Assembly (NCBI GenBank): GCA_030622125.1
Contig: JAUXGM010000034.1
Coordinates: 1 to 17,098 of the forward strand
DNA length: 17,098 nt
Direction: 5' to 3'
From: a bacterium
GTDB taxonomy: Bacteria > AUK180
Position numbers and translations under genes: made by a program. Below, one piece after another: positions 965-16,905 of the stretch. Every line of letters starts with the position of its first letter. The first letter of the stretch is position 1. The notes under the pieces are model-generated. The model made no database searches, had not been told where the DNA came from, and saw nothing but the letters and a program-made list of their open reading frames with translations.

Positions 965-3900
965 TTACTTTATCACTGCGGCTTTTATCGGATCGTATAT
1001 CTCCCTTTTACCACTTGATTCCGCTTTTATAACAATAAAGTAAATACCAGATGCAACATCCTTTGCGTCCTTGTTCTTGCAATTCCAATTGATGCTTTCA
1101 CTTAAATAATCCTCATTGCAAAGTGTTGTTACTTTTTTTCCGGAAACGCTGTAAATCTCAACCGTTACATCACATTGATAGTTTGGCGTGTATGCAATAA
1201 CCATCTTTCCATTCTTTGCAGGATTCGGATAGATCTTTATATTGTCGATAAGATGTTCCGGGCTGTTCTTGATATAAAATTCCTCATCGTAGATCTTTGT
1301 GTCACCAGTTGCATAATTGATCTGCAGCCGCATCTTATATTTCCCATCGGGAAGCACCGTTCCATCATCTTTTTTACCATCAAAATCAATCGAGAGTCCT
1401 CCGTATATTACGGTAATGTAATCCTTAAATCCGTCATTGTTTGGTGATATGATATGCCCTGATAGATCAAAGATTTCAGGATCACCGGCATTATAAAGTG
1501 TTTCGGGAAGAATTATTCTATTTCCATTCACAACCGTTATCAAAACAGTATTGTTATGAAGAACTATCGGCAGATACCTTGTATTATTTATCGTTCTCTT
1601 TTCTGTTTCTGCGGTTTCAGTGTATGCTCTTATAAGTTCCGTATCCTCAAAATGAGTTGTCGGATTGTTATATTGAATAGTAAATACCTCTGTATTCTGT
1701 GTGCCGACATCAAATGCCGTTTCCGTAAATGTTAGAATATTTCCTGCCAATGTCCCGCCGCCTGTGTTAATGACGCTTAAAGATGTCGGTATCTCAATAT
1801 TGAGATCAAAGGAAGTTGACGGTGTATCACCTGCATTTTCAACTCCAACACTTATTACAGAGGTATCACCGATATTAAGATCAAATGTAGTTACATTAAA
1901 TCCGACGATCGCAGGATCCGGAAAGTATCCGACAAGTGTATGGACACTATTCGTATCAAACGAAGTAAAATTACTTCCGGATATTGATGTATAATTTGAA
2001 ATGGTCATACCAAGTGGAGCCAGCACATTGATCTGGACAATAAACGACCTCATCTTTATTTCTCCCGGTAGAACAGTTCCGAAATTGATCCCAATAGGTG
2101 GACCCGGTATATCCGCTCCGCTTATATAGATAAGCATAGGATCTAATGTATCCGATGCAACGACCAAAAGTCCGCTGTCCGTTCCTGTATTTTCAACGGT
2201 GATCGTATATATCAATGTATCTCCGGGAGTTGCCGATTCATAGTTCACACTCTTTGAAGCGATCATCAAAGGACTGGAATGAACAATGGTATAAAATGGA
2301 TTTGAAAAGATATATCCGCCTTCGTTAGAATATCCCAATGCTCTGTCTTCTATAACATAGCCATCTGTAAATGCATCTGCCATCTTAACAACGAACGATA
2401 CGGTATTAAAAGCTGAAAAAACGGGAAGATCTCCGGTATTGAATGTAACACCGGTACCATCATAACCGTCTCCTCCTGAAACATAAGTCAATGGATATGG
2501 GATCGTATTATAGATCGTCGTACCTGTTAATACGGTTCCACCGCTATTTCGGTAAGCAATACTATATGTAAATGTTTCACCGCAATTTATATCGGTAGGA
2601 CCGCTAAGTAAAACAACAAAAGTAGAACTATTATGAACGGTTATATCACAGCAGGAATTATCACTATCCCCATAACCGGCATCTACATCTGCACAATTAG
2701 TAATAAGTGTGGTATTAGGTATTGAACTATCACTTAAAAGGATCAAGGTTACTGTTTCACTGCCGTCTATCCCAAGTGTTGTAAAATCCCAACTTACGGT
2801 ATTTCCCGCCAATGTACCTGCCGGATTTGCACTTACATAAGAAAATAAAGGAGGCATATTATCCGATATTGTAACATTTGCTGCTGTATCGGAGCCTGTA
2901 TTTCCTATAACTATCGTATATTGTATTGTATCACCTGCATAGATGTCCGAGATAGCAGTAGTTTTTTCAATATCAAGATCCGGATATCTCTTTACATCAA
3001 ACGAAACATTGTTGGAATAAGCATAAACAGTGTCACTATCTTGTTTCCCTCTTGCAACATTCCATATAGTATCGCCTTCGGATGCATTAGTTGAAATCTT
3101 GATTGTAAAATGGACGGTATTTCCGGAAGGTGGTACTATATCGGCAAAATTCCACAAAACAGTAGTACCGAAGAGACCCCCGCCACCATCTGCGTTTACA
3201 AAGATCGTGTTAAAGGGGAGCTGATCCTCCAAAACGACATTTGCTGCCGTATCCGTTCCGATATTTGATATATTAAGTGTGTATGTTACAAGTCCTCCGA
3301 TATCTTGAAATAATTTATCAACCGATTTTGTTATGAAAAGATTCGGATAAGAGATAACTGTTGTTTCAATCGTATCACTGTATATGGTTTCATTGTTATC
3401 TGCACTAAGTTTGTTATCTTGATAAATTGTGGTATTATTTGCAACTGGTGTGCTTACTCTAACAATATAAGAAAAGGTATATGTATTTGAGACATTTAAA
3501 CTTGCCAATGTAAATGTAACCGTATTTCCTGCATAAGAACCACCGCTGACATAGATAGTATTATCGGGAAGTGTGGAATCCAATTGTAGATTTTTTGCAG
3601 CGGTATTTCCAACATTTTCAACGGTTATATCATAAGTAACTGTATTACCTGCATTTACGGGATCAGGCGTATCGGTGATTTCACTAAATCTAAGATCAGG
3701 AAAATACCCGGCAGTACAGATAACGATATTACTTGTTTCGCGAATTATCGTATCATCAATTAGTGCATAGTTCGTTACCGTATCACCGGTTGATAGTGCC
3801 GCTGAAAGTGTAACGGTCAATCCTCTTGTATTATAATCTTCCGACGGTGAAAGTGCTCCGATAATATATGTTACGGTATTTCCGGCAAAGCTGCCGCCAT

Positions 3901-6900
3901 CCGTGGCGCTGATAAAAGTCAAATCTGTTGAAAGCGGATCTAAAATATTAACATTGCTTCCATTCGTTGTAGAGTAATTTCTATATGAGATAGTATAATT
4001 TTCTGTCCCGCCGGGAGGCAAAACAGAATCCTTCTGTTCCTTTGTGATCAGATATTTTGATGTTCCGGAAAAATTAGAGGTCTCATCAATCTGTGTTGTT
4101 CCGCCTGATGGTGATGAATTATCATAGTAAATAGCGGTTATCGTATCGCCATAAGCATCTCCTGATGCCAAAAAGGTGCTGTCATAAACGGTATAGATAG
4201 ATGGTGTTTGATCCTCATAGACCTTTATTTTGCCGATGAATGTATCGGAATTTACTCCATTCTCATAAACATCAACCTTTTCCGTATCACCCGTTTTACC
4301 CATAATATAGACAAAATTGTCCTCCGTTGTTGTTATATCAATATTGAGATCAGGGTCATAGAGAGATACGGTAATCGTATCACCTTCATTATAAATTGTA
4401 TTATCAAAACTTAATATCCCGAGTATTGCGGGAAGAATAGTTACGATCTTTATATCCGTATCGGAGTTATCATTAGCATCAATATAGGTTACCGTTACCG
4501 TATCGGGAGAAGAAACGGAAAAGATACCGTCGTTTAAAGCGGAAGCGTTCCCTGAAAAATTTAATAGACCGGAATAAAAAGTTCCGGTGTCAATTTCTGT
4601 TTCCGTTAATGTAACGATCTCGGTATCATTTTTTAAAATTGAATGTAATGTTGCTAACACAGTATCCTTACTAAACTTATTTATATTTTCATCTATATCC
4701 TGAATATGAAGATAGAAATCCTGATCTAATTTGTAAACCGATTGACTTACCTTATTGATATTCTCAACCCAAACATTTGCATTGGTTCTGAGTATCATAA
4801 CCGCTGTATCCGATGAACTATCATTAATATCAAGGGGATCATTATAAATTACGGTGATCGTATCCTTATCGGATGCTTCAAGAATACTGTTGTCTAATGT
4901 TGCAACTGCATTCTGAATTGAAATGATGCTGCCGATAAAAATTCCGGAAATTTCCTCTGAGAGAACTATTGTTTCACTATCATTATTTACAGTATTCCTT
5001 AATGTAACCGTTACCGTATCAACATCATCAAAATGGAGATTTTTATCCAGGTCATCAAGCGTTATGTAAACAGTATCACCTATTGTATAGTTATCAACAC
5101 TATTTTTGGAACTGTCTGTAAATCGGACATCCGATGACGATGTTGAAATAACGATTTGAAATATTTCTTCATCTGTAACGCCATTTGATTCGACACCGGT
5201 TACATTTATATCGTAACTGCCCGGATTATCTCCTATAAATGAATATTCAAAGAGTTTGCTCTCATAGCCGTTATCCGAGACCATTGTCATTGTATCATTT
5301 ATGGAATAGGGAGCTGGAATAATGATTTCGGCACCTGTGGAATCCAATATGTCCTGACTTCCGAATGGATCCGACATCATACTTCGGACATAGATTGCCT
5401 GTCCTTTATAAAAGTTAATCGCAGTTGTTGTATTTCCGGGATCATCACTGTATGATTTATAAAAACCGCCTGCACTGTCAACATTTATGTATGTAATGGT
5501 GGGAATATCAAGTCGTGAATCCCTGTTCTGAGAATCATAAGAAACATTACAACTTGCTGTCAAATTCAATGTAATCTTTAGTTTTTCTCCCTCTATTATA
5601 TCCGTAATTGCCGGAAATGCGGAGATTGCATACCCGGTTGATGCTGTTGTAACAGAAAAATTATCGGATATCGCAACGGTTTGTGTATTTCCACCCGCTA
5701 ATATCTTCTCAACGATCATCTTTCCCGTTGCAGTTCCATCTATATAGAAATGACCCGTAAGGATACCGGAAATATTAAAATCCTTTTTAAATACAGGATA
5801 CTGAATCCATGTCTTTGTGGAAATGGATTCTATCTGTGTATTAGTGCCGATAAAGGTATCTGCTGTAAGATCCTGATGAAAATGGAGTGTCTTTATCTCA
5901 TTTGTTGCCTCACTGATGAAGGCATAAAAGATAGATATATCACTACCGTTGTATTTATCTTTGTATGTAGCGATAAGTGTATCATTGCTTGCGGATTGAA
6001 TTGTACCATCATCTAAAATTGCCGCTCCTTTTGAGATATAGATCCCTGTATCATAAAAAAATTCACCTGAGGAGAGAGCCGTTTCCGGCACAGAAACAAT
6101 CTCCGTATCATTTGCATTTTCCGTATGAAGCGTAACCTCAACATAATCAATATTACTTAAATCTCTGTTATTATCCTCATCAATACATCTTATATAGACC
6201 TTTTCACCTATATCATAAGAATTTTTTGTAATATAACCGTTAAAATTTGTAAGTGAAAGGATGCTGGGACTATTTTCTTTAAATAAAAAATTTCCTTCGC
6301 AATTCTCACTACTATCCTGTTTATCGATATAATGGACATTGCCATCTTGATTATTAAATCCGGTAATACTCCCATTTTCCGTAAAGAGCGGTCCCACATC
6401 GGTGGCAAGTGAACCGGAAAAGATGCCTGATGATTTTTCGGTTTCTATCAAAACAACTGTTTCAGTATCTCCGACATTATCATTTGTAATGATCACCGTT
6501 ACCGTATTTGCACTATTCGGATTAAGATTATTATCAAAATCGGAGACCTCTATTTTAATTGGATTTCCTGCTAAAAATACATAACTTTCATCACCGATGC
6601 TATTAAAAAGAGTAATTGTGCCGGTAGTTTTTGTTACCGTATATAGAGATGAGATAGAAACATCGGTCGGATCGGTCGGATCCTCATACCTTCCGTAGAT
6701 ATATCCCTTATCGCTGCATGTGATTGTGTTGTCGTAAGGTCCTGTTGAAGAGAGTGTATTATTTATTAAATTTGATAGAAATTCACCTGAGTTCGATGAG
6801 GTCTCATAGAGAATAATATTTTCCGTATCGGTATGTGTATCATTATATATGGTAACGGTTGCGGTCTCAATCTTTCCCGGATCGTTATTAAGATCGGGAT

Positions 6901-9559
6901 CATTCAATTTAAGATAAATATCGTTCCCAATGATCAGTCCTGTTTTAAGATAACCGCTGCTGTCGGAAAAATAGAGTGTTGAGGAATGAAGATCTCTGTA
7001 TGCGAGAATTGAAATGATTTTTGTATCAGAGGTATCGGTTTTATCAATATATCTTGCCAAAATAGTATCCGGATTGGAGACATTTATTATTCCATTTTCA
7101 GAGATTGGACCTTCTTCTGATATCGGTATTCCAATGCTTTTGAAGATTGCACTATCAAAATCGGTCTCGTTCAAGGAAATCGTCTCCGTATCGATATGAT
7201 TGAGGTCATTTAAGATAATAGTAACATTTTCTTTTATATTCGGATCCTTGTTCTCATCCGTATCACTACATTCCACAATACAATTCTTACCGATATAATA
7301 AAATGTTGCTTCTGCTCCAAGCTCATCAAGAAATTTAATACTTGCAGATGTTGGGAAAATAACCTTTATACTATCGGTTGTGGTATCACTGTTATTATAT
7401 TTATCCATATAAGATAACGTAAGTGTATCGTTTGATGTATTATTTAAGATACCATCATAAGAAGCCCCCGGTGAAGATGAAAGTGTCCAGGGTTGTGTAT
7501 TTACAAATATCCCCGTACTATTTCCTGTTTCTAAAAGAGTCATTGCCTCCGTATCAATACTATTTTTTATTATTACATTGATCTTTTCCTGATTGGAAAA
7601 ATTAAGGTTCTGATCATTATCATATATCCTGATATTTATGTCATCCTCACCTACAATGTATTTATATGCTTGATCTGTGCCATCCGTAAAGTATCCGGAT
7701 GAATTTGTAGCAGCAACGATCTGGACACTATCGGTAGATGTATCAGTAGGATCATCGTCATCCGTATAAAGTCCGATAAGGAGATTTCCCGGATTTATCT
7801 CTAATATTCCGTTTTCAATTGTAGAAGGCAGGGCTTCAAGTGAAATGGACCCCCTGAAGATACCTGATGCAGGTGTTGATTCCGTTAATATATAATGTTC
7901 GGTATCATTGTGACTGCTGTCGAAGAGCAAAGCCGTTACCGTTTCAGAGATAGCACCGTTTTCATCTTCATCTAAGTCTGTAATTTGAATGTAGACCGTA
8001 TTTCCGATTGCATAGCCGGCTACCTTATTATAATTACTATCTGTAAATTGGAATGTAGAGGTCGTAGTTGCTTTTAAGACTGCATAATCATAGTAGTCCT
8101 CTTCCACTCCGCTGTAATTTTTATTATCATGGTATTTTACCGTTAATGTATCGTTATCCGTTCCTTCAAGGATACCATTTTCTGTTGAACCAAAGGGAAT
8201 AGAGGTTAGAATAGTTCCATCATAGATACCGGAATCGGTTCCCATTTCTGTAAGTATAAGCGTTTCTGTATCACCGGAAAGTGATGTTAAGATTACATCT
8301 ACCGTTTCAGATATGGATGGATCGGTATTAAGATCAAGATCTTCAACGGTTACGGTAATAAGATCGCCATCTCTATAGAGTGAGTTATCAAAATAAACAG
8401 TTCCACCGTTATAATGGTAGAGACAATTATTTACAGTTAAGATCGTGTTGGTTGAGATAAGATAACCACTGCCGCCGTTATCATCAAGGCAAGAGGAATA
8501 GGAGGGATCATAATTCACCGATGAAGGATCGTTAAAGTAGAGCTTATATGTTCCGGTATCTGCTACACCAAATGAATATATACCATTTGATATCGTATGT
8601 GGTCTTGTATCATATAGTGAGTTATCCATTTTATAGACATATATTGAAACATTCGGAATACCTATCCCGCTTCTACATTCCGTAACCTTTCCTTCGAATC
8701 CCTGCGGATAGATCTGCCAGCTCGGGATACCTGTTCCCGATAGCTCTGAATCCTGTGTCCTCCACTGTCCCGTATCACCAAGAAAATAATTGTTCAGTGA
8801 AACGGTATCAGATGAGGAATTCGGATTTATATAGAATTTATATGTAATATGATACTCTCCATTTCCGGGTGCATAGGGATAGTATGTTTGCGGATCGTTA
8901 TGGTTCGGAAGATCAGATTTAATATCTGCAAGTTTTACCGTATCATATCTGTCTAAAAAATTCCCCCATGATAGATTCTCGGGACTTCCTCCCGTTATCT
9001 CAACCGTTTGCATAATTTCTACATAACCGCCGAGTAGTAGATCACCAACGACATTGTTTGTAACAATGAATTGTCCTGTATTCCACGATTGAACAATATA
9101 AATATCACGCTGAATTGATGATAATGTATGTGGTGTTCCTTCAATATAGTATGTTGCGTCCATTTGAAGTGCATCTGGAAAATTCTGCTCTACGCCTGCA
9201 TTTGGTCCAAAAGAGTATGGAGTAATTGCCCAATAAAGATATTCGGAATTCCCCGGATATAGATTTTTTACCTTCTTTGTCTTTTCCTCACCGGGTGGGA
9301 TTTCAAAACTACTGTCTACTGTAATCGTAGCAACAAATGTATCAATTAAATTTATTGAATCCCCCGTAACCTTTAAGATCACGGTAAAATCGGTTGCGAA
9401 ACCGTCATCCTTTCTATAATGTGCCGGTGCATTTATTGCCTCTGCTGCATTTGCACCTCCAATCATCCGTCCCCATTCCATTGTCGGTGCACCGAAGATC
9501 GGCACAAAAATAAAGAGTATCAGGGCTGTGACAATAGATAGCCTGAATAATCTACGCAT
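965..9559 (-). CDS. Giant secreted repeat protein (Asp-rich DxDxN repeats, DUF11 repeats, FlgD-like tail)
   Basis: An exported protein of 2864 residues. Residues 1 to about 24 form a signal peptide (MRRLFR, then a hydrophobic core). Residues 25-285 are unrecognised. About 286-350 resembles a Cna-B/carboxypeptidase-regulatory beta-sandwich (FEGKVTECRSGIGIPNVSIYVY). Ten Asp-rich repeats follow, with DxDxN cores at 407, 528 (variant), 647, 766, 887, 1007, 1127, 1503, 1621 and 1735. Each carries a downstream D-T-E-x-(I/V) motif and most also an S/T-G-x-F and an N-D-T-(L/I) motif. A different island occupies about 1216-1476. Seven DUF11-like repeats run from about 1835 to 2660, with conserved G-(D/N)-T-x-x-Y and N-x-G. 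The end has an SPNNDGFKDYITV module (2705-2717) and a FlgD/Por-secretion-like module from YPNPAKNGK (2777) to VASGIYFIVIKA and the C-terminus. There is no LPxTG anchor. A surface fibre, adhesin or envelope role is likely; substrate and partners are unknown. The start is supported by GGAGGAACAGG directly before the ATG. Confidence 0.9.
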   Translation of the reverse strand: MRRLFRLSIVTALILFIFVPIFGAPTMEWGRMIGGANAAEAINAPAHYRKDDGFATDFTVILKVTGDSINLIDTFVATITVDSSFEIPPGEEKTKKVKNLYPGNSEYLYWAITPYSFGPNAGVEQNFPDALQMDATYYIEGTPHTLSSIQRDIYIVQSWNTGQFIVTNNVVGDLLLGGYVEIMQTVEITGGSPENLSWGNFLDRYDTVKLADIKSDLPNHNDPQTYYPYAPGNGEYHITYKFYINPNSSSDTVSLNNYFLGDTGQWRTQDSELSGTGIPSWQIYPQGFEGKVTECRSGIGIPNVSIYVYKMDNSLYDTRPHTISNGIYSFGVADTGTYKLYFNDPSSVNYDPSYSSCLDDNGGSGYLISTNTILTVNNCLYHYNGGTVYFDNSLYRDGDLITVTVEDLDLNTDPSISETVDVILTSLSGDTETLILTEMGTDSGIYDGTILTSIPFGSTENGILEGTDNDTLTVKYHDNKNYSGVEEDYYDYAVLKATTTSTFQFTDSNYNKVAGYAIGNTVYIQITDLDEDENGAISETVTALLFDSSHNDTEHYILTESTPASGIFRGSISLEALPSTIENGILEINPGNLLIGLYTDDDDPTDTSTDSVQIVAATNSSGYFTDGTDQAYKYIVGEDDINIRIYDNDQNLNFSNQEKINVIIKNSIDTEAMTLLETGNSTGIFVNTQPWTLSSSPGASYDGILNNTSNDTLTLSYMDKYNNSDTTTDSIKVIFPTSASIKFLDELGAEATFYYIGKNCIVECSDTDENKDPNIKENVTIILNDLNHIDTETISLNETDFDSAIFKSIGIPISEEGPISENGIINVSNPDTILARYIDKTDTSDTKIISILAYRDLHSSTLYFSDSSGYLKTGLIIGNDIYLKLNDPDLNNDPGKIETATVTIYNDTHTDTENIILYETSSNSGEFLSNLINNTLSSTGPYDNTITCSDKGYIYGRYEDPTDPTDVSISSLYTVTKTTGTITLFNSIGDESYVFLAGNPIKIEVSDFDNNLNPNSANTVTVIITNDNVGDTETVVLIETEKSSGIFSGSLATDVGPLFTENGSITGFNNQDGNVHYIDKQDSSENCEGNFLFKENSPSILSLTNFNGYITKNSYDIGEKVYIRCIDEDNNRDLSNIDYVEVTLHTENANDTEIVSVPETALSSGEFFYDTGIYISKGAAILDDGTIQSASNDTLIATYKDKYNGSDISIFYAFISEATNEIKTLHFHQDLTADTFIGTNTQIESISTKTWIQYPVFKKDFNISGILTGHFYIDGTATGKMIVEKILAGGNTQTVAISDNFSVTTASTGYAISAFPAITDIIEGEKLKITLNLTASCNVSYDSQNRDSRLDIPTITYINVDSAGGFYKSYSDDPGNTTTAINFYKGQAIYVRSMMSDPFGSQDILDSTGAEIIIPAPYSINDTMTMVSDNGYESKLFEYSFIGDNPGSYDINVTGVESNGVTDEEIFQIVISTSSSDVRFTDSSKNSVDNYTIGDTVYITLDDLDKNLHFDDVDTVTVTLRNTVNNDSETIVLSEEISGIFIGSIISIQNAVATLDNSILEASDKDTITVIYNDPLDINDSSSDTAVMILRTNANVWVENINKVSQSVYKLDQDFYLHIQDIDENINKFSKDTVLATLHSILKNDTEIVTLTETEIDTGTFYSGLLNFSGNASALNDGIFSVSSPDTVTVTYIDANDNSDTDIKIVTILPAILGILSFDNTIYNEGDTITVSLYDPDLNIDITTTEDNFVYIMGKTGDTEKVDVYENGVNSDTFIGKIKVYEDQTPSIYTVYDSTFLASGDAYGDTITAIYYDNSSPSGGTTQIDETSNFSGTSKYLITKEQKDSVLPPGGTENYTISYRNYSTTNGSNVNILDPLSTDLTFISATDGGSFAGNTVTYIIGALSPSEDYNTRGLTVTLSAALSTGDTVTNYALIDDTIIRETSNIVICTAGYFPDLRFSEITDTPDPVNAGNTVTYDITVENVGNTAAKNLQLDSTLPDNTIYVSGGSYAGNTVTFTLASLNVSNTYTFSYIVRVSTPVANNTTIYQDNKLSADNNETIYSDTIETTVISYPNLFITKSVDKLFQDIGGLVTYTLNISNIGTDTAANVVLEDQLPFNTIFVNADGGGGLFGTTVLWNFADIVPPSGNTVHFTIKISTNASEGDTIWNVARGKQDSDTVYAYSNNVSFDVKRYPDLDIEKTTAISDIYAGDTIQYTIVIGNTGSDTAANVTISDNMPPLFSYVSANPAGTLAGNTVSWDFTTLGIDGSETVTLILLSDSSIPNTTLITNCADVDAGYGDSDNSCCDITVHNSSTFVVLLSGPTDINCGETFTYSIAYRNSGGTVLTGTTIYNTIPYPLTYVSGGDGYDGTGVTFNTGDLPVFSAFNTVSFVVKMADAFTDGYVIEDRALGYSNEGGYIFSNPFYTIVHSSPLMIASKSVNYESATPGDTLIYTITVENTGTDSGLLVVASDTLDPMLIYISGADIPGPPIGINFGTVLPGEIKMRSFIVQINVLAPLGMTISNYTSISGSNFTSFDTNSVHTLVGYFPDPAIVGFNVTTFDLNIGDTSVISVGVENAGDTPSTSFDLNIEIPTSLSVINTGGGTLAGNILTFTETAFDVGTQNTEVFTIQYNNPTTHFEDTELIRAYTETAETEKRTINNTRYLPIVLHNNTVLITVVNGNRIILPETLYNAGDPEIFDLSGHIISPNNDGFKDYITVIYGGLSIDFDGKKDDGTVLPDGKYKMRLQINYATGDTKIYDEEFYIKNSPEHLIDNIKIYPNPAKNGKMVIAYTPNYQCDVTVEIYSVSGKKVTTLCNEDYLSESINWNCKNKDAKDVASGIYFIVIKAESSGKREIYDPIKAAVIK

Positions 9560-10635
9560 CCTGTTCCTCCTTCCTCATCATCATAGATCTTTTCATCAAT
9601 GATGGTTTCATCGGTGGTATTCCACCAATTCCCCTTAGCGAATATATTATTTGCCGAAAGGTTTATAACATTAAAATTATTACAGATAAAACTATTATTG
9701 CCATTAGAAATACTTCCCATATCCGAATTTGAATTTTCATCAATAATTATTCCGTCATAACAGTTATTAAATATAGTAGTAGAAATTGATATGGAGGAAT
9801 TTATTAGTTCCATCCCGATATTGCAATTTGCAAACAATAAATTTGAGATATTACCGCTATTTCCCTTTAAGATCATTCCCGTTTCACACTTTGTAAATTT
9901 TAGATTTGAAAGTGAAATATTTTTATTTGAATAGAATCCCGTCGTTGCATTCTTTACATTCACATAATCTATATTTATTCCAGTCCCATGATAGGTTATT
10001 CCGCCCCAGCAGTCGGGAACATCAATTGAGCCCAATATTGTAATCGGTAATGCCTCACTTCCCAGAGCAGCCAAATTACCGTAACATACAATCTCCACCC
10101 TATTCGGATCCCCACCGATATTAAGAATATCATTTGACGACACAGTGATCGTAGCTCCTTCACTTATTGTAAGTGTGATCCCATTCTGAATTAAGATATC
10201 ACCCGTTAATGTATGTGTTCCATTCCAGACTTCATCCGATGTCAGGATACCACTTTGCGATTTTCCGATATGTACCCTTTGAGTTTTTTCACTATAAAGT
10301 CCGACACTGTCCGTTGCTCTACAAACAATATCATAATCTCCATAAGTTGAACCGGCTGTAAAGATCGTTGTATTTCCTGTTGTATTAGAAAATGTTCCCC
10401 CATTGGAATACCAATAAAATGAAATTGCATCGCCCTCTCTATCTTCTGCGGAAACAGAAAGTGGAACCGTATTCCCATAATCTAAAAAATTTACTCCACC
10501 GGTTATTGTAATATTGTATGGAGGATTTTGTGAGACATCGGAATCCGGATCCATTGGATTTTTTCTTTGAAATGTGCATCCTGTAAAGATTAAAATAAGG
10601 AATAGTATCAGTATCTCAATTTTAGACCTAAGCAT
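9520..10635 (-). CDS. Lipoprotein with Ig/PKD-like domain and right-handed beta-helix
   Basis: A 371-residue exported protein. A type II signal peptide ends in the lipobox FTGC, with the lipidated Cys at residue 20. Residues about 38-124 form an Ig/PKD-like beta-sandwich (NPPYNITITGG, PLSVSAEDREGDAISFYWYS, DIVCRATDSVGLYSEKTQRVHIG). From about 130 on, short hydrophobic strands alternate with Asn/Gly turns typical of right-handed parallel beta-helix (NosD/Pbh1-type) repeats, for example ILIQNGITLTISEGATITV. The end matches the usual terminal cap of such proteins (GNWWNTTDETIIDEKIYDDEE, then VDYSGYL). Beta-helices often bind or cleave polysaccharide, but no catalytic residues can be recognised. 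The start overlaps the SPOR-like gene by 28 bp. The end overlaps the giant gene by 40 bp, so the three are surely co-transcribed. A role in anchoring or presenting the giant protein is inferred from context only. Confidence 0.87.
   Translation of the reverse strand: MLRSKIEILILFLILIFTGCTFQRKNPMDPDSDVSQNPPYNITITGGVNFLDYGNTVPLSVSAEDREGDAISFYWYSNGGTFSNTTGNTTIFTAGSTYGDYDIVCRATDSVGLYSEKTQRVHIGKSQSGILTSDEVWNGTHTLTGDILIQNGITLTISEGATITVSSNDILNIGGDPNRVEIVCYGNLAALGSEALPITILGSIDVPDCWGGITYHGTGINIDYVNVKNATTGFYSNKNISLSNLKFTKCETGMILKGNSGNISNLLFANCNIGMELINSSISISTTIFNNCYDGIIIDENSNSDMGSISNGNNSFICNNFNVINLSANNIFAKGNWWNTTDETIIDEKIYDDEEGGTGCVDYSGYLLSQP
9560..9570 (-). promoter_or_regulatory. Strong ribosome binding site of the giant gene
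   Basis: On the minus strand GGAGGAACAGG stands immediately before the ATG at 9559, one of the strongest Shine-Dalgarno matches in the window. It lies inside the 3' end of the upstream beta-helix lipoprotein gene. It therefore fixes the start despite the 40-bp overlap and suggests high independent initiation on the giant gene. Confidence 0.75.
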
Positions 10636-11444
10636 AATATATTTCCCTTGTTCGTTAAATTAAAAGTAACCTTTTTCTCTTTTTCAAAATCCTTTGTTCT
10701 GAAGAAAAACTGATAGACAAGTATACCGCCTGCACTTATCCCCGAGACAAGAAAACCCTTGTATTTTTTATCGTTTACCTGAACATTATCCCAATATGAA
10801 AGTGTCTTATCGGGATCCGTTTCGTTCATATAATCATCGTAAGATCCATCCGCCTTTTTATAATAATAGTAAGAAAGCCCACTGGAGATCAAGGTAAAAG
10901 CCGCCGATAAATAGATAGATGTCTTTCGTGAGAATGTAACCTCTTTTATCTTTTCTTTTTTAAACCTACTTCGGTATTTTTTTATTGCCTTTCTTCTTAC
11001 CTTATCTCTTTTTTTCATATCCGATAACCTTTTTTTCTTTGCTTTTGTCTCTATAATTTCTTTTACCGGTTCTTTTTGCGGTTCCGTAACTTTTTTTATA
11101 GGTATCTTTATTGTTTTTTTTCTTTGATATATCTTACTGCCAAATCGGTTTTTCCTGAGTTGATTGGCAATTCTGTTTTTCTCTCCAATATCCTTTGTTT
11201 CGGCTACAAAAACAGCATATCTAATTTCTCCCTCTACTTTTTTCTTAACAACCTTAAGTCCTTTATATCCGAAACTTTTCATCAATTTGATCTGGGATAC
11301 GGCTTCCCCGGGAGTTGGATAAAAATTCTCATAGATTAAGTAAGATATCTCAATTTTTTCTTCATAAGATACATTTTGATTTTCTTCACTGTAAACAGGA
11401 AAAATTAGAATCAATAAGATAATGAAATATCCTATTCCTTTCAT
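10608..11444 (-). CDS. SPOR-like membrane/periplasmic protein with basic linker
   Basis: A 278-residue protein. Residues 1-19 are a signal peptide or N-terminal anchor (MKGIGYFIILLILIFPVYS). Residues about 42-108 resemble a SPOR-type fold: YPTPGEAVSQIKLMKSFGYKG, then RYAVFVAETKDIGEKNRIANQL, a two-strand/helix pattern of a domain known to bind denuded peptidoglycan. Residues 109-170 are extremely Lys/Arg-rich and probably disordered. Two hydrophobic segments follow (about 175-193 and 231-248), flanking an acidic/aromatic stretch with YDDYMNETDPDKTLSYWDN. This arrangement is shared by many uncharacterised bacterial membrane proteins (DUF5683-like). The C-terminus ends in LCLGLKLRY. It is first in the operon with the beta-helix lipoprotein and the giant protein, which suggests a cell-wall-linked role in their assembly or export. 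The SPOR call is by eye and moderate; the gene itself is secure. Confidence 0.75.
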   Translation of the reverse strand: MKGIGYFIILLILIFPVYSEENQNVSYEEKIEISYLIYENFYPTPGEAVSQIKLMKSFGYKGLKVVKKKVEGEIRYAVFVAETKDIGEKNRIANQLRKNRFGSKIYQRKKTIKIPIKKVTEPQKEPVKEIIETKAKKKRLSDMKKRDKVRRKAIKKYRSRFKKEKIKEVTFSRKTSIYLSAAFTLISSGLSYYYYKKADGSYDDYMNETDPDKTLSYWDNVQVNDKKYKGFLVSGISAGGILVYQFFFRTKDFEKEKKVTFNLTNKGNILCLGLKLRY

Positions 11445-13328: not shown

Positions 13329-13813
13329 GCCTTCCATATTTCTATTAGTCTATCGCTATCTTTGTAGATATTAAAAAACAACTTGCTGATCTTTTTTAAA
13401 TTACTTTGATTTGTCCTTTTATCTTTGTATAAATATTTTTCTAAATTTTGTGCCACCCTGCCGAATTCTTCTACATTTGAAAGTGCTCTTTTTAATATAA
13501 AGTCTCCCGGCAAAAATGGAAGTTCTTCTTTTATTTTTTTTAGATTTCCCGAATAATTAAGGAGGATATATCCATTTTTAAGAAGATCAATGTTATCATA
13601 AGGTTCTTTTAAAAATTTGGAAAAATATTTTTTCAATTCCACATCTTTTTTGTAGAATGTTACTATTTGCCTAATTCCCGGAATAGGAATATAAGGTGTA
13701 GAAATATTCTGATGTGCTATAATATAAAGAAAGAAATTTTTAACGCCAAGAGAGAGAGTATCAACAATATCAATGATCTCCGGAGCCATTAAAAAAAAAG
13801 AGTCCGATTTCAT
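13325..13813 (-). CDS. Hypothetical protein, 162 residues
   Basis: I do not recognise this protein. It has no signal peptide, no convincing membrane segment and few cysteines. It is rich in Lys, Leu, Ile and aromatic residues, with a moderately hydrophobic part at 20-34 (SLGVKNFFLYIIAHQ) and a likely helical C-terminal half (from about 103 on). Position supports it as a real gene: its start forms TAATG with the stop of the rhamnose-epimerase-like gene, and its stop overlaps the next lipoprotein gene. A run of nine T's in the sense strand (13791-13799) lies five codons into the gene, just before an internal ATG (Met9, MAPEIIDIV) that could be an alternative start. The role may be tied to the nucleotide-sugar enzymes or to the lipoprotein; the sequence does not decide. 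Confidence 0.75.
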   Translation of the reverse strand: MKSDSFFLMAPEIIDIVDTLSLGVKNFFLYIIAHQNISTPYIPIPGIRQIVTFYKKDVELKKYFSKFLKEPYDNIDLLKNGYILLNYSGNLKKIKEELPFLPGDFILKRALSNVEEFGRVAQNLEKYLYKDKRTNQSNLKKISKLFFNIYKDSDRLIEIWKA

Positions 13814-14934
13814 TAAACCAACCCTTTCATCTTTAATTCTTTTTCTACTTTTGCGAAATTATCTGCTGATTCTTGTGTTGAAAGCCATTCAATATAATCC
13901 AATAATCCATTTTTTAATCTTATTTTCGGTTTGAATCCGAGCAGTTTTTTGGCAAGCGTAATATCGGCAAAACAATGTCTGATATCACCATTTCTAAATC
14001 TGTTCGTTATGGTAATATCTCCATCTTTCAGGATATGTTGCTGCATAATAGATGCGATCATTTTAACGGATGTTGCGATACCCGTTCCTAAATTTATTGA
14101 TTTGCCATTTGCTTTATCATCTTTCATTGCGAGTAAAATCCCACGAACGAGATCGGAAACATTTATAAAGTCCCTCGTCTGATTTCCATCTTCATAAATT
14201 ACCGGCGAATGATTATTTAATAAACGCGATGCAAATATTGCAAGGACACCCGTATAGGGATTAGATAGCGATTGTCGGCTACCGTAAACATTAAAAAAAC
14301 GCAAGGCAACGGTAGGAATATTGTATGCTTTTCCAATAATATGAACCATCTCTTCCTGATCTCTTTTTGTTACAGCATATATTGATGTCGGATAAAGCGG
14401 TTTATCTTCCGATGTAGCAATTGGAACAAGATTTTTTCCACAGGACGGACATTTGTAATCCCAATTGCCGGTAGATAATTGTTTTTCAGTTCTTATCTGC
14501 GGGTTAAAAACCCCGTCTTTACTGCAATAATATTTTCCTTCACCGTAGATGGACATTGATGATGCTACAAGTATTTTCTTAATCTTATGGCAATGAGATG
14601 AAAGGTATTCAAGTATAGAAGCGGTAGCATAAGTATTCCCCTTTATATACTTTTTTATTTGATACATAGACTGCCCGACACCGACAGAAGCGGCAAGGTG
14701 AATTAATATATCTGTTTTTGGAATATATTTTTTTAGGACATCTTTTTTTTCACATTTATCAAAGATATATTTTGCTTTTTTGTTTAGATAAGATGGCTTT
14801 TTCCCGCGATGGACCTGTTTTTCTAATGAATCGACAACGATCACCTGATAACCTTTTTCGATAAGAAGATCTACAAGATGTGAACCGATAAAACCGGCGC
14901 CGCCCGTTACCGTAACCCTCATATTATTCGCCAT
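13813..14934 (-). CDS. dTDP-L-rhamnose 4-epimerase-like extended SDR with Cys-rich insertion
   Basis: A 373-residue extended short-chain dehydrogenase. The NAD-binding GGAGFIG is at 11-17, Ser125/Ser126 lie in VASSMSIYGEG, and catalytic Tyr186-x3-Lys190 is in SIYAVTK. The stretches HLAASVGVGQSMYQI (79-93) and RQSLSNPYTGVLAIFASRLL (220-239) are characteristic of the dTDP-L-rhamnose 4-epimerase group (making dTDP-6-deoxy-L-talose), which is the best call. Exact substrate is inferred. Between strand and active site it carries an insertion of about 35 residues with Cys137, Cys162 and Cys165 (YYCSKDG, then YKCPSCGKNL), resembling a small zinc-ribbon; a fourth ligand is not clear. The start at 14934 overlaps the upstream gene by 11 bp. 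Met5 (14922), placed like the starts of the other two SDRs and one base after the upstream stop, is equally plausible. Confidence 0.85.
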   Translation of the reverse strand: MANNMRVTVTGGAGFIGSHLVDLLIEKGYQVIVVDSLEKQVHRGKKPSYLNKKAKYIFDKCEKKDVLKKYIPKTDILIHLAASVGVGQSMYQIKKYIKGNTYATASILEYLSSHCHKIKKILVASSMSIYGEGKYYCSKDGVFNPQIRTEKQLSTGNWDYKCPSCGKNLVPIATSEDKPLYPTSIYAVTKRDQEEMVHIIGKAYNIPTVALRFFNVYGSRQSLSNPYTGVLAIFASRLLNNHSPVIYEDGNQTRDFINVSDLVRGILLAMKDDKANGKSINLGTGIATSVKMIASIMQQHILKDGDITITNRFRNGDIRHCFADITLAKKLLGFKPKIRLKNGLLDYIEWLSTQESADNFAKVEKELKMKGLV

Positions 14935-15889
14935 TCTTTTGGTATTCTATGATATCCTCTATTATCTCTTTTAGATACAACTTCGGTTCCCAGTTAGCAT
15001 ATTTTTTAATTTTAGTTATATCGGGCACCCTTCTTCTCATATCTTCGAAATTGCTTCCCATTGCCTTTTCATAAGGTATGTGTTCAATTGTGGAATTTGA
15101 ATTCGTCATCTTTCTGATTATTGCAGCAAGATCATTTATAGAATGTTCATCAGGGTTACCGATATTAAATATCTGCCCCTCACATTTTTTCTCATTCATT
15201 ACAATCTCAATTGCTTTTATTACATCATCAATATGCGTAAAGCAACGTGTTTGTTCACCATCTCCGTATATTGTTATCGGTTTTCCCAGAAGAGCTTGTT
15301 TTACGAACCTCGGTACTACCATCCCGTAATCACCTACCTGTCCGGGACCCGTAGTATTAAATAACCTAATAATTGTAAGCGGTAATTTTTTTTCGTGATA
15401 GTATGCCAATCCCAAAAATTCGTCAAGTGCTTTTGTATTGGAATAACTCCATCTTGATATCGTTGTACTCCCCAATATCCTATCATCCGTTTCTATCAAA
15501 GCATCTTTTTCGTTTTTCCCATATATCTCGGAGGTAGATGTAATTAAAACCTTTTTATTATATCTATGTGCAAGTTTCAAAACATTTTCCGTGCCTTGAA
15601 CATTGATCTCTATTGATTTTAAGGGATTATTTATAACATATTCCACTCCGACCGATGCGGCAAGGTGAAAAATTGCATCAACTTTTTGTATCGTTTGCTC
15701 CAAGATCTCAATATTCAAAATAGAATCAAGTATAAATTTAAAATTCTTATTCTGCTCGAGATCTTTTATGTTTTCAAAAAATCCGGTTGAAAGATCATCA
15801 ATAACAAATATCTCATGCCCTTTTTTTAACAGAAACCTTGAAAGATTTGAACCGATAAAACCTGCACCGCCTGTAATTAAATATCTCAT
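14924..15889 (-). CDS. NAD-dependent nucleotide-sugar epimerase/decarboxylase (GalE/UXS-like)
   Basis: A 321-residue extended SDR. It has GGAGFIG at 7-13, an acidic NAD-ribose ligand in VIDDLS (29-34), TSTSEIYG at 117-124 and the catalytic Tyr149-x3-Lys153 in WSYSNTKALDEFL. Substrate-side motifs are RLFNTTGPGQ (175-184), YGMVVPRFVKQAL (188-200) and IYGDGEQTRCFTHIDDV (207-223). The latter resemble UDP-glucose 4-epimerases and UDP-glucuronate decarboxylases, and I cannot decide between them. It acts in the cytoplasm on a nucleotide sugar, probably feeding surface polysaccharide. Its ATG overlaps the stop of the CDP-paratose-epimerase-like gene (ATGA), so it is the second gene of the unit. Confidence 0.87.
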   Translation of the reverse strand: MRYLITGGAGFIGSNLSRFLLKKGHEIFVIDDLSTGFFENIKDLEQNKNFKFILDSILNIEILEQTIQKVDAIFHLAASVGVEYVINNPLKSIEINVQGTENVLKLAHRYNKKVLITSTSEIYGKNEKDALIETDDRILGSTTISRWSYSNTKALDEFLGLAYYHEKKLPLTIIRLFNTTGPGQVGDYGMVVPRFVKQALLGKPITIYGDGEQTRCFTHIDDVIKAIEIVMNEKKCEGQIFNIGNPDEHSINDLAAIIRKMTNSNSTIEHIPYEKAMGSNFEDMRRRVPDITKIKKYANWEPKLYLKEIIEDIIEYQKNGE

Positions 15890-16905
15890 ATTATCTCCTT
15901 ATTATTTTTAACCCATTCATTTAATTTTTCAATTCCTTTTTCTACATTGTAGCTGGGAGACCATCCCAATATTTTTTCTGCCCTGGAAATATCGGATATA
16001 TAAACCCTTTGATCACCGGGACGCCAGTTCTCGAATTGATGTTCTATCTTGTGCCCGACAAGATCTTTCAATATATCAATAAATTCTAATAATGATATGA
16101 CATTATCACTGCCTCCGCCGATATTGAATGCCTGCCCTTTGACCTTATCTATGCCTTCAATTGCTTTTTCATAACAGTTCACAAGATCCTTCACATAGAG
16201 AACATCTCTAACTTGAAGTCCATCGCCGTAGATCGTTAACGGTTTGTTATTTACAGCAGAGATCAAAAAATGGGCGACCCACCCCTGATCCTCATTCCCA
16301 AATTGGTGGTCACCGTAAATACAGGATTGCCTGAATACAACCGTCCTAAAACCATAGATCCGTGCATAATCAATAAAATATTGATCACCGGTTCCTTTTG
16401 AACAACCATACGGAGAGTGAAAATCAAGTCCGAATTTTTCGGATATTCCATTCGGATAATCACGATAACCGTAATGCTTGCTGTCCTTCTTTTCAACAAC
16501 AACCTCTTCCATTCCGCCATAAACCTTATTTGTTGAAGAGTAAAGCATTATAGGACTTTGATCTGTAACCCTTGCACCTTCAAGAATATTAAAAGCACCA
16601 AGTGCATTTATCTCAAAATCACTTCTTGGGTCGGTTACGGATGTTGTTACGGCAACCTGTGCAGCAAGATGAAAAACAATATCAAAATTATTTTTTTCAA
16701 AGATCTTTTTAACTGTTTTCCAATTTGTAATACTGCCCTTTATAAATTTAAGTCCCTCTATTTTTTTCTTTAAAAATCTAAGATTTTTTTCCGTTCCTTT
16801 TCTTGATAGATTGTCAAGAATTATTATTTCCGCCCCTTTTTCTGCAAAATGTTCACAAACATTTGTTCCTATAAAACCGGCACCGCCGGTTACAAGTATC
16901 TTCAT
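15886..16905 (-). CDS. CDP-paratose 2-epimerase-like enzyme (CDP-tyvelose-forming type)
   Basis: A 339-residue extended SDR whose motifs fit CDP-paratose 2-epimerase (TyvE/RfbE): GGAGFIG at 7-13, SSTNKVYGG at 123-131, DFHSPYGCSKGTGDQYFIDY at 161-180 with catalytic Tyr166-x3-Lys170, SCIYGDHQFGNEDQGWVAHF at 194-213, and IYGDGLQVRDVLYVKDLV at 225-242. The known reaction epimerises C2 of CDP-paratose to CDP-tyvelose, a 3,6-dideoxyhexose of O-antigens. The earlier enzymes of that route are not in this window, so the true substrate could be another nucleotide sugar. The ATG has a well-placed GAGG ribosome binding site and lies about 20 bp below a strong promoter, making it the lead gene of the six-gene unit. 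The stop overlaps the next SDR by 4 bp. Confidence 0.87.
   Translation of the reverse strand: MKILVTGGAGFIGTNVCEHFAEKGAEIIILDNLSRKGTEKNLRFLKKKIEGLKFIKGSITNWKTVKKIFEKNNFDIVFHLAAQVAVTTSVTDPRSDFEINALGAFNILEGARVTDQSPIMLYSSTNKVYGGMEEVVVEKKDSKHYGYRDYPNGISEKFGLDFHSPYGCSKGTGDQYFIDYARIYGFRTVVFRQSCIYGDHQFGNEDQGWVAHFLISAVNNKPLTIYGDGLQVRDVLYVKDLVNCYEKAIEGIDKVKGQAFNIGGGSDNVISLLEFIDILKDLVGHKIEHQFENWRPGDQRVYISDISRAEKILGWSPSYNVEKGIEKLNEWVKNNKEII

Follow-up and report, generated by a model that had tools for sequence, protein, structure and literature searches.

Several surface proteins and surface-protein domains are the closest described systems to the protein studied here. The S-layer protein of Nitrosopumilus maritimus (NmSLP) is an array of Ig-like domains, and the integrity of this S-layer is calcium-dependent (PMC11153153). 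Hybrid S-layer alleles have been reported in Kuenenia (PMC7709395), whose S-layer glycoprotein is Kustd1514. The domain formerly called DUF11 and now renamed CLIPPER is described as an Ig domain of the CnaA-like type that carries an isopeptide bond and often occurs in the stalks of fibrillar adhesins (PMC12617251).

The window, that is, the whole stretch of 17,098 nucleotides that was analysed, contains a gene for a giant protein carrying relatives of these domains. Our analysis indicates, with a probability of about three in four, that this is an exported surface protein in which two Ig-like families of separate origin are set in blocks, the A repeats (A1-A10) followed by the B repeats (B1-B7), and whose equal periods follow from similar domain size. 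The relationship between the A repeats and the S-layer domains of archaea and anammox bacteria is a more useful result than the match in repeat period on which the initial annotation had focused.

Layout of the giant gene and its repeats

Three genomes from the same family encode full-length orthologs of 2859-2874 amino acids, which share 46-49% identity with the giant protein. The features of the gene and of its two neighbours are listed in Table 1. Gene order and both overlaps are identical in all orthologous loci (window 9520-11444), which suggests a conserved coupled operon; the 278-aa exported protein has no Pfam match. Elsewhere in the window we observed a HEPN gene paired with a nucleotidyltransferase gene (237-943), arranged as is typical of HEPN/MNT toxin-antitoxin modules, and a short tandem repeat with 4.7 copies of the unit ATTGTCA (60-92). 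Three genes for NAD-dependent sugar epimerases/dehydratases follow one another at 13813-16905, with ends that overlap or nearly do so.

Table 1. Features of the giant protein gene and its operon neighbours, in window coordinates
Feature	Position	Strand	Basis or remark
Giant protein gene, 2864 aa	965..9559	(-)	single open frame; full-length orthologs
Signal peptide and N-terminal region, aa 1-380	8420..9559	(-)	apparently exchanged in one ortholog
A1-A7 repeats, aa 381-1220, NmSLP-type Ig-like domains	5900..8419	(-)	motif, profile and structure matches
Insert, aa 1221-1475, neither repeat A nor B	5135..5899	(-)	Pfam, ortholog lengths
A8-A10 repeats, aa 1476-1833	4061..5134	(-)	profile, AlphaFold model, structure search
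B1-B7 repeats, aa 1834-2665, DUF11/CLIPPER	1565..4060	(-)	Pfam, profile, model, structure search
C-terminal type IX sorting domain (Por_Secre_tail)	1013..1234	(-)	Pfam and NCBIfam
371-aa lipoprotein-like protein with PKD domain	9520..10635	(-)	overlaps giant gene by 40 bases
278-aa exported protein	10608..11444	(-)	overlaps PKD gene by 28 bases

The repeat positions given in the initial annotation were reproduced. The ten DxDxN cores lie exactly at residues 407, 528, 647, 766, 887, 1007, 1127, 1503, 1621 and 1735, and the glycines of the DUF11 G-x-T motif at 1851, 1971, 2089, 2209, 2327, 2446 and 2564, the motif being degenerate in B1 (GTE). Successive steps are 121, 119, 119, 121, 120, 120, (376), 118 and 114 in A, 116 from A10 to B1, and 120, 118, 120, 118, 119 and 118 in B. 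The shared period of about 119 residues is real, with a mean step of 119.0 in A, leaving out the gap, and of 118.8 in B. The ten DxDxN motifs compare with 1.9 expected from shuffled sequences (maximum of 2000 shuffles, 7), and highly significant individual profile matches show that the repeats of both families are real domains. Between A7 and A8 the array is interrupted by a non-repeat insert of 256 residues, with no Pfam match over cut-off. The A7-A8 motif distance (376-377 in the orthologs) is not a multiple of the period, so the insert breaks the register.

AlphaFold models were obtained for A8-A9-A10-B1-B2-B3 (mean pLDDT 87.7) and for A4-A5 (mean pLDDT 92.8), the relative orientation of the domains being uncertain in both (pTM 0.46 and 0.60, respectively). 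The first strands in the longer model start at residues 2, 120, 240, 361, 481 and 599, giving domain lengths of 118, 120, 121, 120 and 118 with the A/B junction included, so that domain boundaries track the motif spacing, as had been proposed. Each domain of either family is modelled as a compact Ig-like sandwich with about nine strands, a length of about 119 residues and a short linker; the predicted domains share the broad Ig-like fold class and are nearly equal in length, and not of the clearly different length that would have spoken against the proposal.

Origins of the two repeat families

When the whole protein was compared with the PDB by phmmer, only the DUF11/CLIPPER structure 9IFR was recovered (E 0.033), and profiles of single families were needed. 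No Pfam model was found for family A. Against the PDB, a profile of the ten A repeats of the window matched the S-layer protein of N. maritimus with an E-value of 3.1e-7, and a wider profile of 17 diverse repeats, drawn from the present and further bacterial lineages, matched the same archaeal protein with an E-value of 7.6e-25. The structural comparison agrees: A pairs matched the N. maritimus S-layer structure with Z-scores of 15.4-16.5 over two domains (15.4 for the A4-A5 model), and the next fold, that of macroglobulin domains, reached about 10.4. Taken together, these profile and model comparisons make homology between the A repeats and the Ig-like domains of NmSLP likely. The NCBIfam Kustd1514 family (NF052345) also matches the A repeats (E 2.4e-36), but its score of 124.7 bits against a family cut-off of 1400 indicates that the giant protein is not a member of that family.

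The A blocks are strongly acidic, with a net charge of about -12 per 100 residues. In the diverse set of A repeats D28, D30 and E60 are invariant and N32 is nearly so, and the DxDxN loop, together with the other invariant acidic residues, probably forms a calcium site. In the repeat tree A1 (window 8066-8419) and A10 (window 4061-4417) form a subtype of their own with a support of 0.99, and in both a segment close to the start of the repeat is missing; they are possible cap variants. Very long proteins with A repeats only, of up to 7200 codons (G035), were also observed in other bacterial lineages (L040-L043, L088-L103).

The B repeats pass the PF01345 model with 158.8 bits in six stretches (gathering cut-off 24.6), and the B1 model superimposes on 9IFR with a Z-score of 14.6 and an rmsd of 2.2 over 116 residues. 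Structural matches of the B block also include leg domains of integrin alpha and pilin domains of the CnaA type. The Lys-Asp-Asn isopeptide triad, which is not universal among DUF11/CLIPPER domains, is present in B3 (K2078-D2112-N2183) of all four orthologs and complete in B1 of three and B6 of two; its lysine is absent from B2, B5 and B7. Judged by these residues, isopeptide bonds of this kind could arise in B3 and partly also in B1 and B6.

The initial annotation had offered a common beta-sandwich ancestor as one explanation of the equal period, which would mean that a repeat was duplicated inside such proteins and that A and B then diverged with the period kept. The part of this proposal that stands is that both families are Ig-like sandwiches of nearly equal length. 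Profile similarity between them is nil, however, with a probability of 0.2% in the profile-profile comparison of the window repeats and of 1.3% when hhalign was applied to deep profiles built from 233 and 110 repeats, neither indicating homology. Their conserved residues differ, each has nearer relatives elsewhere, in different phyla or different domains of life, and the solved folds that they match are N. maritimus S-layer domains for A and CLIPPER/DUF11 and CnaA domains for B. CLIPPER and CnaA structures are absent from the 50 matches listed for A, as is NmSLP from the matches listed for B, but this does not constitute evidence of different folds. These comparisons suggest that A and B are each structurally closer to other Ig families than to one another, and we consider descent from one duplicated repeat very improbable.

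Significance of the matched period

The second explanation that had been offered, selection for equal spacing, was not demonstrated when the period was compared with those of other arrays. Median steps are 115-135 residues in 20 other A arrays and 119-140 in nine other B arrays, the window periods lying near the short end of both ranges, and a single genome (G035) contains A arrays with steps of 117, 129, 134 and 135. An A and a B array drawn at random have medians within 1.5 residues of each other in 14% of the pairings, a rough figure because the sample of arrays is small and partly non-independent, several coming from the same genomes. A match as good as that between A and B is thus not improbable and is unremarkable. 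We attribute the equal periods to similar domain size, and not to detectable common descent or to proven selection on spacing; the match in size is real and most likely an ordinary coincidence.

Selection for uniform spacing would imply that a fibre or lattice requires modules of one size and keeps both families at about 119 residues. Several observations point in this direction: successive domains start at intervals of 118-121 residues, the A/B junction being no exception, each repeat step is within 2 residues across the orthologs, and the standard deviation of the steps (1.3-2.3) falls among the lower values for arrays. Moreover, repeat-region indels between orthologs are few and short, and gap events number 0.5-0.6 per 100 columns, roughly half the frequency in the two operon partners (1.1-2.6, at 36-48% identity). 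Nevertheless, sandwich domains tolerate few indels anyway, single-family arrays elsewhere are almost as regular (standard deviation 1.7-2.1), and the insert between A7 and A8 disrupts the register. The low indel rate fits a constraint on domain length and leaves room for selection on length, without implying equality between the families. Mixed A and B arrays were sought elsewhere as an independent test of spacing, and none was convincing. In addition, the orthologs represent one case by descent: the best cross-genus match of a repeat is the repeat at the same position in 97 of 100 A comparisons and in all 70 B comparisons, indicating that the array is old and stable. The same figures led us to reject homogenisation of the repeats. 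On balance selection for uniform spacing is unlikely, and ordinary similarity in domain size remains the preferred explanation of the period.

Proposed export, possible N-terminal exchange and comparison with known systems

The C-terminal sorting domain scores over the cut-off of both PF18962 (34.8 against 27) and TIGR04183 (29.1 against 23), and the genome encodes 21 type IX sorting domains. A partial SprA match (125 bits) is under its cut-off of 200, and searches of the genome, run without a positive control, recovered neither the C25 peptidase nor SprA_N. From the N-terminal signal peptide, the sorting domains and the partial SprA match we infer that the giant protein reaches the cell surface along a type IX-like route. 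The Sec signal peptide would direct export of the giant protein, the C-terminal sorting domain would serve its passage through the outer membrane by this route, and the exported protein might form a long rod or an S-layer-like arm, with a shaft stiffened by isopeptide bonds of the B repeats and the N-terminal region as an exchangeable end.

Evidence on this end comes from two loci of one genus, L037 (G001) and L039 (G004), which show about 96% DNA identity along the locus outside the start of the giant gene. The first 395 codons or so of the L037 giant gene instead match the window, which belongs to another genus, with 86% DNA identity (window 8387-9588), the junctions being the gene start and the first A repeat. 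The L037 N-terminus is the result of either module exchange or an assembly artefact. If confirmed, the swapped N-terminus would mean that the exposed part of such proteins is changed by module exchange. Residues 290-360 or so of the N-terminal region of the giant protein gave only sub-threshold Pfam matches, to SdrD_B and CarboxypepD_reg.

The repeats might alternatively be only a stalk presenting the N-terminal region, in which case the protein would be a fibrillar adhesin and not an S-layer protein. DUF11 repeats are typical of such stalks (PMC12617251) and the N-terminus stands apart as a region that appears to have been exchanged; on the other hand, half of the repeats are of S-layer type, and the two readings are not mutually exclusive. 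We place the adhesin at a little under even odds. The domain content is best read as that of a surface protein that is exported and ends in a type IX sorting domain, either S-layer-like or fibrillar. The most elaborate version would be a bacterial S-layer of archaeal-type (NmSLP) Ig domains and CLIPPER domains that leaves the cell along a type IX-like route, whose N-terminal module was exchanged horizontally and whose module length is kept the same in both unrelated families by selection on lattice geometry; in all its parts together this version is very unlikely.

Among known systems, NmSLP (PDB 8C8K, 8C8M) resembles the A block as an acidic array of Ig-like domains that matches it by profile and structure. 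It differs in being archaeal, in its length of 1734 aa and in its A-like step of about 133 residues (about 116 in the anammox profile), and neither DUF11 nor a type IX tail is reported for it. Kustd1514 of Kuenenia has the A domain in common with the giant protein, which nevertheless falls far short of that family's score threshold, and the N-terminal mosaic of L037 resembles the hybrid S-layer alleles known in Kuenenia (PMC7709395). DUF11/CLIPPER (PF01345, PDB 9IFR) is matched by B1-B7, with the fold of the B1 model and the triad residues of B3, with the difference that three of the window repeats are without the triad lysine. The Tannerella S-layer proteins (PMC12175726), likened here by description and not by sequence, are likewise exported by means of a C-terminal type IX signal. 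The A domain is common to S-layer proteins of ammonia-oxidising archaea and anammox bacteria and to giant surface proteins of several bacterial lineages; in the protein of the window it is joined to CLIPPER domains and to a C-terminal type IX sorting domain. If confirmed, its link to NmSLP would give many giant surface proteins that are now unannotated a template of solved structure.
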